From Oscillospiraceae bacterium (GTDB lineage: Bacteria > Bacillota > Clostridia > Oscillospirales > Acutalibacteraceae): a DNA stretch of 32,407 bases. The DNA is taken from the NCBI GenBank assembly GCA_015066465.1, contig SVOI01000029.1, positions 1-32,407 of the forward strand. Direction: 5' to 3'. Position numbers and translations under genes: made by a program. The notes under the pieces were generated by a model that did no database searches, had not been told where the DNA came from, and saw nothing but the letters and a program-made list of their open reading frames with translations. Below, piece by piece: positions 19,578 to 32,403 of this stretch. How positions within the stretch are numbered: position 1 is the first letter of the stretch; each line of letters starts with the position of its first letter.

Positions 19578-19598
19578 GGCAGGGCGAATTAAATATAT

Positions 19599-19691
19599 GG
19601 AGAGTTGTCCGAGCTGGTCGAAGGAGCACGACTGGAAATCGTGTAAACGCCTAAAAGCGTTTCGAGGGTTCGAATCCCTTGCTCTCCGCCA
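19599..19691 (+). tRNA. tRNA-Ser(GGA)
   Basis: The acceptor GGAGAGT pairs with GCTCTCC, discriminator G19688, and CCA is encoded (19689-19691). The anticodon arm CACGA-CTGGAAA-TCGTG gives anticodon GGA. A long variable arm (AACGCCTAAAAGCGTT) is present, as expected for serine tRNA, and the T-arm is GAGGGTTCGAATCCCTT. Its 3' end is duplicated at 19864-19882. Confidence 0.97.
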
Positions 19692-19888
19692 AAAAGAGAA
19701 AAGCACCTTTTAGGTGCTTTTTTCTTTTTAGTTAAGTTCAAAAGCAAGGGATTCGAACCAGAAATGGGAGCGAACTCGGAGCAAAGCGACGAAAGGAGCG
19801 ACAGAGAAACAGTCCAGTGGACTGTTTCGACATTTCTCCAACTGAACGAAGTGAAGGCGAAAAAATCCCTTGCTCTCCGCCAAAAAGA
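19673..19888 (+). repeat. tRNA-derived repeat at tRNA-Ser
   Basis: The last part of the tRNA plus the following bases (19673-19697, 25 nt) is repeated exactly at 19864-19888. Between the two copies are the first terminator, an inverted copy of the tRNA T-arm (19744-19759, exact complement of 19667-19682), and a core (19760-19863) containing the palindrome AAACAGTCC-AGT-GGACTGTTT. The core recurs downstream of tRNA-Arg at about 92 percent identity by eye. No ORF on the plus strand explains it. Confidence 0.92.
19699..19723 (+). terminator. Terminator of tRNA-Ser
   Basis: AAAAGCACCT (19699-19708) pairs with AGGTGCTTTT (19712-19721), followed by T. It begins eight nt after the CCA. Confidence 0.88.
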
Positions 19889-19915
19889 AGTGGTACTTTT
19901 GTACCACTTCTTTTT
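19882..19915 (+). terminator. Second terminator after the duplicated tRNA-Ser end
   Basis: A perfect 15-bp stem (19882-19896 with 19901-19915), loop TTTT, ends in five T. It follows the duplicated CCA directly, as the first terminator follows the genuine one, but its stem sequence differs. Confidence 0.9.
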
Positions 19916-19929
19916 AGTTAGGCACAAGA

Positions 19930-32010: not shown

Positions 32011-32106
32011 CTTAAGATTTTGTAAGAATGGCAAGTTTCAAAAGAAAAACGTAAAGTTTCATTACGCTCTCCCATTTCTGGTTCAAATCCCTCTTGGTGT
32101 AAAAAT

Positions 32107-32142
32107 AAAAAAGATACCACACAAAAGTGTGCTATCTTTTTT
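32107..32142 (-). terminator. Duplicated terminator after the copied tRNA-Arg end
   Basis: Identical to the one at 32292-32327: a 16-bp stem with one G-G mismatch, loop TTTT on the minus strand, T-rich tail. Confidence 0.85.
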
Positions 32143-32291
32143 GGCCTGCCCAGAGGGATTCTTTCGCCTTCGCTTTGCTCAGTTAGAGAAATGTCAAAAC
32201 AGTCCACTGGACTGTTTCTCTGTCGCTCCTTTCCTCGCTTTGCTCGGAGTTCGCTCCCATTTCTGGTTCAAATCCCTCTTGGTGTAAAAAT

Positions 32292-32327
32292 AAAAAAGAT
32301 ACCACACAAAAGTGTGCTATCTTTTTT
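32292..32327 (-). terminator. Terminator of tRNA-Arg
   Basis: On the minus strand, AAAAAAGATAGCACAC and GTGTGGTATCTTTTTT form a 16-bp stem with one G-G mismatch, directly after the CCA, followed by ATTTTTAC. Confidence 0.88.
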
Positions 32328-32403
32328 GGCCTGCCCAGAGGGATTTGAACCCCCGTTCTTCAGAATCGGAATCTGCTGCGTTATCCAACTGCGCCATGGG
32401 CAG
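32327..32403 (-). tRNA. tRNA-Arg(CCG)
   Basis: On the minus strand the acceptor CTGCCCA (32403-32397) pairs with TGGGCAG, discriminator G32330, encoded CCA (32329-32327). The anticodon loop TTCCGAT within CAGA/TCTG gives CCG, decoding CGG. The D-arm has GCGC with one mismatch, and the T-arm is GGGGGTTCAAATCCC with a mild mismatch to the usual TTCGA. Its promoter lies beyond the right edge. Confidence 0.94.

Follow-up and report, generated by a model that had tools for sequence, protein, structure and literature searches.

Two units behind tRNA genes

The window, that is, the whole 32,407-nucleotide stretch of DNA analysed here, contains two tRNA genes behind which lies the same succession of elements: a terminator, an inverted T-arm, a core, a 19-nt direct copy of the tRNA 3′ end and a second terminator. 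On the plus strand, tRNA-Ser(gga), called by ARAGORN and by the Rfam tRNA model at 19599..19691 and the putative template of the first copy, is followed by an intrinsic terminator made of a hairpin and a T run (19692..19729, paired in the predicted fold), an inverted copy of the Ser T-arm together with part of the acceptor strand (19743..19759, AGCAAGGGATTCGAACC, an exact 17-nt inverted match to the tRNA), the core (19760..19863, also present in genomes G015 and G001 and partly in G018), an exact direct copy of the last 19 nt of the tRNA through CCA (19864..19882, AATCCCTTGCTCTCCGCCA), and a second terminator, recognized from sequence and fold, that is unlike the first in sequence (19883..19916). 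The RNA of this unit folds much more strongly than shuffled sequence (z -6.1). On the minus strand, tRNA-Arg(ccg) (32327..32403, ARAGORN), which would have templated the second copy, precedes an inverted copy of its own T-arm (32265..32279, AGAGGGATTTGAACC, an exact 15-nt inverted match), a core (32162..32264) and an exact direct copy of the last 19 nt of the tRNA through CCA (32142..32160). Beyond the second terminator of the Arg locus, the sequence continues on the same strand with another inverted arm (32080..32094; BLAST match at 32069-32092) and the first 11 nt of a core (32069..32079, AGAAATGGGAG), indicating a tandem unit of which the last copy is truncated.

A first-pass annotation of this DNA had noted that the two cores are nearly identical, at about 96 of 104 positions, while the inverted flanks differ and match the local tRNA. 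Alignment gave 96 identical columns out of 104, one gap counted in, and the 17-nt and 15-nt complements described above are exact, in agreement with both statements. The layout that it proposed was likewise found, except that the Ser inverted arm begins at 19743, one base before the 19744 given there; the truncated further unit at the Arg locus had escaped it.

A 112-aa open reading frame runs antisense across the Ser tRNA and its element (19589-19927, minus strand), where spurious genes may be annotated. The window also carries a T-box leader at 256-500 on the minus strand.

The layout recurs around different cores

Searching by the core sequence yielded matches in seven of 60 genomes, the window's own among them. 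The copies stood behind tRNA-Ser, -Arg, -Tyr and tmRNA with local arms, save in two instances: in G018 the arm carried mismatches and the core was shortened, and one of the three matches in G059 (locus L015) had no adjoining tRNA and resembled the relic of a tmRNA copy. Of 22 genomes of the genus searched for the Ser(gga) gene, 21 contained it, and inspection of 19 Ser(gga) loci by reading revealed the full layout in 12, a truncated one in two and none in five. Since the 12 full layouts harbored at least three different cores, the search was extended by layout alone, with a pattern (T-arm, 48-78 bases, inverted T-arm) that ignored the sequence of the core.

This pattern matched 163 of 394 genomes of the order, whereas its reversed form matched 13 (hand count from the table). 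It also matched 114 of 391 genomes of the class (some belonging to that order) and 31 of 299 genomes of the phylum (some belonging to that class), all three counts being upper bounds because the signature may fall inside a neighbouring tRNA. Among the phylum loci drawn, 17 tRNAs had the signature, which in eight of them lay inside another tRNA; six of the remaining nine had local arms, each of the six with a distal copy. The class loci drawn comprised 26 tRNAs with the signature, 18 of them with local arms and 11 of these 18 with a distal copy. Of the 92 loci in which the inverted run was 11 nt or longer, 77 also had a direct run of 10 nt or more, and the 82 cores listed were 34-231 nt long. 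The design is general and independent of the core sequence; its tie to tRNAs is partly built into the layout search, which was restricted to T-arm sites. In viral contigs, the first pattern produced no matches; the negative control drawn from them rests on the layout pattern with one extra 3′ base and comprises at least 120 loci.

An exact-sequence scan of genome contigs proved too narrow, returning two loci that were both already-known relatives. The central palindrome was also tried as a marker (64 of 394 genomes) and abandoned: it marks a second, larger MITE-like family as well and is therefore not diagnostic, and the combination of T-arm and palindrome had no match in the palindrome-rich genomes G067, G371 and G184. 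This second repeat, of about 300-450 bp, has ends near TCAG(T/C)(C/G)TGT as judged by eye and shares the palindrome AACAGTCC. It was seen at L018, L023, L025-L031 and L078-L092 (G301, for instance, holds 74 copies of the palindrome), and in several loci it sits between two direct copies of the terminator hairpin of a protein gene. Two further observations concern single loci. A tRNA-Ser(gct) on a G+C-rich viral contig (L283), perhaps from another phylum, is followed by a local inverted signature and a distal copy, and Rfam Gut-1 RNA lies directly past the element behind a tRNA-Arg at L010 (1330-1403).

The arms follow the resident tRNA

The test set consisted of 156 distinct tRNA or tmRNA 3′ ends from non-viral loci, 106 of which, covering 15 tRNA amino-acid types and tmRNA, had the signature 15-110 nt downstream. 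The nine-base arm, two positions of which are free, equalled the local T-arm in 102 of these 106 loci, compared to a mean of 28.7 and a maximum of 44 matches in 10,000 shuffles of the arms among the loci; because the loci were partly found by pattern and some are orthologous, the shuffles overstate independence. The match also extended outside the universal T-loop bases: the next one, two, three and four bases past the signature agreed in 94, 76, 51 and 35 of the 106 loci, for shuffled expectations of 51.5, 22.0, 9.6 and 2.8. The four misfit arms were those of L107, L111, L140 (Gln) and L057. In viral contigs searched with a pattern that differed by one additional base, seven of 50 tRNAs agreed with the arm, among the matches listed. 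The match between arm and tRNA is beyond chance. Fixed flanks in other copies, the outcome that the first-pass annotation had named as speaking against its reading, were not what these loci displayed, and the flanks of the RtT repeats of E. coli, Salmonella and Providencia described below track the neighbouring tRNA as well.

Closely similar cores occur at different tRNAs within one genome, not only in the window (Ser and Arg) but also in G079 and G352. A search of G352 by core alone returned seven matches in six tRNA loci (Ser, Arg twice, Met, Gly and Tyr), at all of which the first arm was local, with one mismatch at Ser. In G079, the same kind of search returned nine matches, seven of them behind Arg (twice), Leu, Val, Gly, Ser and tmRNA, the other two being a contig that starts in tRNA-Val 3′ sequence and a fragment 275 nt past the Leu copy. 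The tRNA-Val of this genome has an unusual T-stem, which its arm follows.

Where the tRNA and its distal copy differ (105 positions in 39 loci), the arm agreed with the tRNA at 97 positions, with the distal copy at one and with neither at seven. Arm and tRNA are both fixed by the search pattern at 68 of the 105; at the 37 pattern-free positions, the arm agreed with the tRNA 29 times, with the distal copy once and with neither seven times. Departures of the arm at positions where tRNA and distal copy agree were not enriched in G-T wobbles (18 of 119, hand sum). Four of the arms at eight orthologous Ser loci of the genus, all with one core, match their own tRNA at the base immediately after TCCC, which suggests that copying is neither perfect nor continuous.

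The core forms covarying hairpins and lies on the strand of the tRNA

The hairpins of the core covary in the two subfamilies tested. In a subfamily alignment of 22 cores, 10 of 15 predicted pairs displayed double changes and 316 of 328 cells were paired. A controlled count was performed on 16 of these cores, after removal of L119, L135, L150, L153, L162 and L189, the majority of which carry more gaps in the alignment. It yielded 94.0% of paired cells against 78.1% in shuffles and a covariation score of 0.452 against 0.163 (0 of 500 shuffles), and the central helix was 100% paired with both sides changed in six of its 10 pairs; the measure of further pair types revealed no excess over shuffles in the same 16 cores (138 of 500). 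The second subfamily (nine sequences) had double changes in eight of 19 pairs. G-U pairs were rarer in the best core hairpins (53 of 1043 pairs, from 96 of the 106 loci) than in the terminators (145 of 1580, from 104 of the 106 loci), with a p value of 8e-5 computed over rows that are not independent. Model R1, built on the first subfamily, also matched cores of other subfamilies, other orders and genomes outside the class, including L406 (62.8 bits) and L402 (47 bits). On the two cores of the window it matched the central hairpin only, with 20.7 bits (E 0.002) at the Ser locus (19807..19827, plus strand, AAACAGTCCAGTGGACTGTTT) and 20.2 bits at the Arg locus.

Strand was scored over 56 matches taken from two model-search lists (37 of 40 and 19 of 46). 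Three second views of one place were dropped from the former, and one L349 repeat and the matches with E above 0.001, many of which are the palindrome read on the other strand, from the latter. All 47 matches with a tRNA within 700 nt upstream share the strand of that tRNA. The remaining nine have no upstream tRNA, partly where the piece ends or where ARAGORN made no call. Two of the nine belong to L039 (G203 contig 102, 600-1700), where tandem units lie at the 3′ end of a putative rpsI, identified by eye from the encoded C-terminus; here the core is opposite in strand to the gene, and the arms resemble the 3′ end of the gene. The unit is non-coding. A repeat, GGTAGCGTTGCGACCGCC..., was seen in or beside the cores of L329, L168 and L328 (G352), once within the central hairpin.

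Relation to the RtT RNA of E. coli

Repeats at tyrT of E. coli were described decades ago, and we know of no account of their origin. These 178-bp repeats, or RtT RNA (RF00391, rttR), have the same design as the units described here; the first-pass annotation knew of no named element built in this way, but RtT is one. At tyrT/tyrV, E. coli K-12 carries four units of the same layout, one of them annotated as RttR; the Rfam RtT model matches all four, and its outer stem is formed by the inverted arm and the direct copy. A single complete unit follows K-12 proK, and then a second that stops within the core, a situation also seen at the window's Arg locus. In Salmonella Infantis, proK is trailed by three units, the last of them broken, with arms and direct copies that fit Pro, and Providencia alcalifaciens has one unit behind a tRNA-Lys, with arms and direct copy fitting Lys. 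A 79-base piece of the RtT core was matched in 4692 of 5426 complete E. coli genomes, with zero to four RtT features under the match in 60 rows spread over these matches; rows with and without RtT were both seen at proK. The number of units at tyrT/tyrV was none in strain DFL.5, one in CM2 and four in K-12. DFL.5 and CM2 differ by exactly one unit between identical flanks, which may equally reflect an insertion or a deletion.

A passage of PMC4986893 describes RtT as an RNA released from the transcripts of tyrT and other tRNAs, and places it beside Asn and Lys tRNAs in Actinobacillus. Elsewhere, some RtT-like repeats are grouped with BIMEs (in a part of PMC2965389), Salmonella rtT is treated as a 175-bp VNTR (in a part of PMC2658671), and one section of PMC12584984 mentions a laboratory mutant that lost one Tyr tRNA gene together with RtT.

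The clostridial units resemble RtT in their place behind a tRNA, the linker, the inverted arm, the hairpin core, the 19-nt direct copy, the tandem arrangement and the variable number of units. As in RtT, the inverted arm pairs with the direct copy around the core, except that in the G352 subfamily the direct copy begins too late for full pairing. They differ, as judged by eye, in the T-loop complement (TGAGAA in RtT, TTCGAA in the clostridial units) and in that E. coli tyrT has no obvious terminator hairpin between the tRNA and the arm. Applied to the window at gathering score, to 10 clostridial loci with E as high as 0.5, and to genomes G000, G388 and G352 with E as high as 10, the Rfam RtT model returned no match, and no Rfam family was found for the clostridial cores of the window and of the 10 loci. 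Conversely, model R1 scored at best 12.8 bits on the RtT loci, on the wrong strand, and homology by this route was rejected. The clostridial units thus share the design of RtT, membership in the Rfam family being unsupported by the model; their cores are either unrelated to RtT or too distant for Rfam's model.

Origin of the units

We consider the units to be RtT-type tRNA 3′-end repeats with arms copied, at the DNA level, from the resident tRNA, a reading that we judge about evenly balanced between right and wrong. The unit is usually about 120-250 bp long, stands nearly always behind a tRNA or tmRNA, and may occur in tandem. Let X stand for the 3′-terminal part of the tRNA that begins at the T-loop and ends with CCA, and X′ for its inverse; with C as the core and T as a terminator or linker, the locus reads X-T-X′-C-X-T(-X′-C-X-T...), a chain of palindromes. 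The mechanism is constrained by the presence of one core at many tRNAs, by the local character of both ends and by the use of a single strand; a transposase acting on fixed ends would not be expected to produce local ones. Templated copying, whether at insertion or later by template switching, would fit best. Both X′ and X would then be DNA copies of the local tRNA, arising either through templated synthesis as the core settles at a new tRNA or through template-switch repair between the strong palindromes X-T-X′ and X′-C-X. The unit would probably be a hitch-hiker on tRNA transcription, and its cost to the host should be low because the direct copy leaves the 3′ end of the tRNA intact; recombination between copies of X may expand or contract the number of units. 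Identity between the 36-base stretches behind the two X copies reached 90% or more in 26 of 81 loci and stayed below 60% in 42 (random pairs: median 53%, one of 300 at 90%); it therefore seems that in some cases a unit duplicates the local terminator and in others it brings in or evolves a different one. The first-pass description of the element as tRNA-templated is supported in part, by flanks that are local in 102 of 106 loci; the act of copying itself we infer. This analysis found no intermediate or circle of the copying process, and no strain pair with an insertion of certain direction, the E. coli cases being equally readable as deletions between 19-bp repeats.

We tentatively raise the broader possibility, which we hold with limited confidence, that the units form a gene-less mobile class that on arrival copies the tRNA 3′ end both ways, thereby rewriting its own ends for any tRNA, tmRNA or even the 3′ end of another gene, RtT and the clostridial elements being separate branches.

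It is unlikely that the arms are instead maintained by a selected RNA function, the trailer having to pair with the T-arm or with its own 3′ copy and the arms adapting by compensatory mutation. The strong covariation of the core is in line with such a function, as is the description of E. coli RtT as a processed RNA (in a passage of PMC4986893). Selection for pairing, however, would predict the use of G-U pairs, which are rarer in the core hairpins than in the terminators, and a distal copy kept in step, whereas the arms agree with the tRNA rather than with the distal copy (29 versus 1 of the 37 positions); at least one E. coli strain, DFL.5, moreover does without the unit at tyrT/tyrV.

Quite unlikely, in our estimation, is an origin as integron-like cassettes, small circles whose folded strand would be recombined at the T-loop by a tyrosine recombinase and which would bring the tRNA a cassette-borne 3′ end and terminator. 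The array layout, the precise whole-unit difference between E. coli strains, the low similarity, in 42 of 81 loci, between what lies behind the proximal copy and what lies behind the distal one, the folded outer stem formed by X′ and X and the single orientation would all be accounted for. Yet a cassette from a foreign tRNA would break the recipient tRNA, and a single core occurs, with ends that are local, at many tRNAs.

We regard as very unlikely the insertion of a transposase-driven MITE beside terminators with a long target duplication, for which one could invoke the 26 of 81 loci where the sequence following the tRNA is duplicated, as well as the separate MITE-like family, with the same palindrome and between duplicated terminators in several loci. 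Standard IS elements and MITEs were said in the first-pass annotation to behave otherwise, and we concur: in place of terminal inverted repeats of their own, the units have flanks that follow the tRNA (102 of 106 loci), no common ends other than the tRNA-like arms could be discerned by eye in the 82 cores listed, a transposase gene would not fit, and all 47 matches with a tRNA upstream lie on its strand instead of in either orientation. Such an insertion also leaves the inverted arm unexplained. IS1182-type palindromic targets found no support in a literature search. Finally, ordinary tandem duplication of the tRNA 3′ end with chance inverted repeats is hardly credible, for although truncated last copies and copy-number variation look tandem-repeat-like, it explains neither the inverted arms nor a core common to different tRNAs with local arms, nor the local matches in 102 of 106 loci against seven of 50 in viral contigs (among the matches listed).

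Significance and comparison with known systems

Within the literature searched, which was confined to open-licence papers and in which we found nothing on arms following the tRNA, the rewriting of the ends to the resident tRNA as a rule, and the wide spread of the design, appear to be new. The design is no oddity of one operon, the pattern being found in about two in five of the sampled genomes of the order (upper bound). This suggests that DNA is copied at tRNA genes by a process whose mechanism we found nowhere described; the copying mechanism is now testable, and E. coli K-12 offers a direct test system.

Integrative elements that target tRNA genes have attL and attR at tRNA 3′ ends, as set out in a part of PMC9897764. 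Like the units described here, which in 77 of 92 loci are bounded on both sides by directly repeated tRNA 3′ sequence, they duplicate the tRNA 3′ end directly and keep the tRNA intact. The units differ in lacking genes, in having an extra inverted copy and in placing one core at many tRNAs, and their 34-231 nt cores are too short to encode an integrase of the kind such elements carry. Integron gene cassettes form attC arrays of head-to-tail units whose ends fold as hairpins. The present units are likewise head-to-tail with hairpin-folding ends, but their site is the tRNA T-loop, their ends follow the host tRNA, and GTTCRA, as found here, does not by eye fit the integron R′ consensus GTTRRRY. 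REP/BIME, ERIC and MITE repeats, finally, are short non-coding palindromic repeats of fixed sequence; the tRNA-linked units are equally short, non-coding and palindromic, but, unlike these repeats, they appear to be rewritten by their neighbour.
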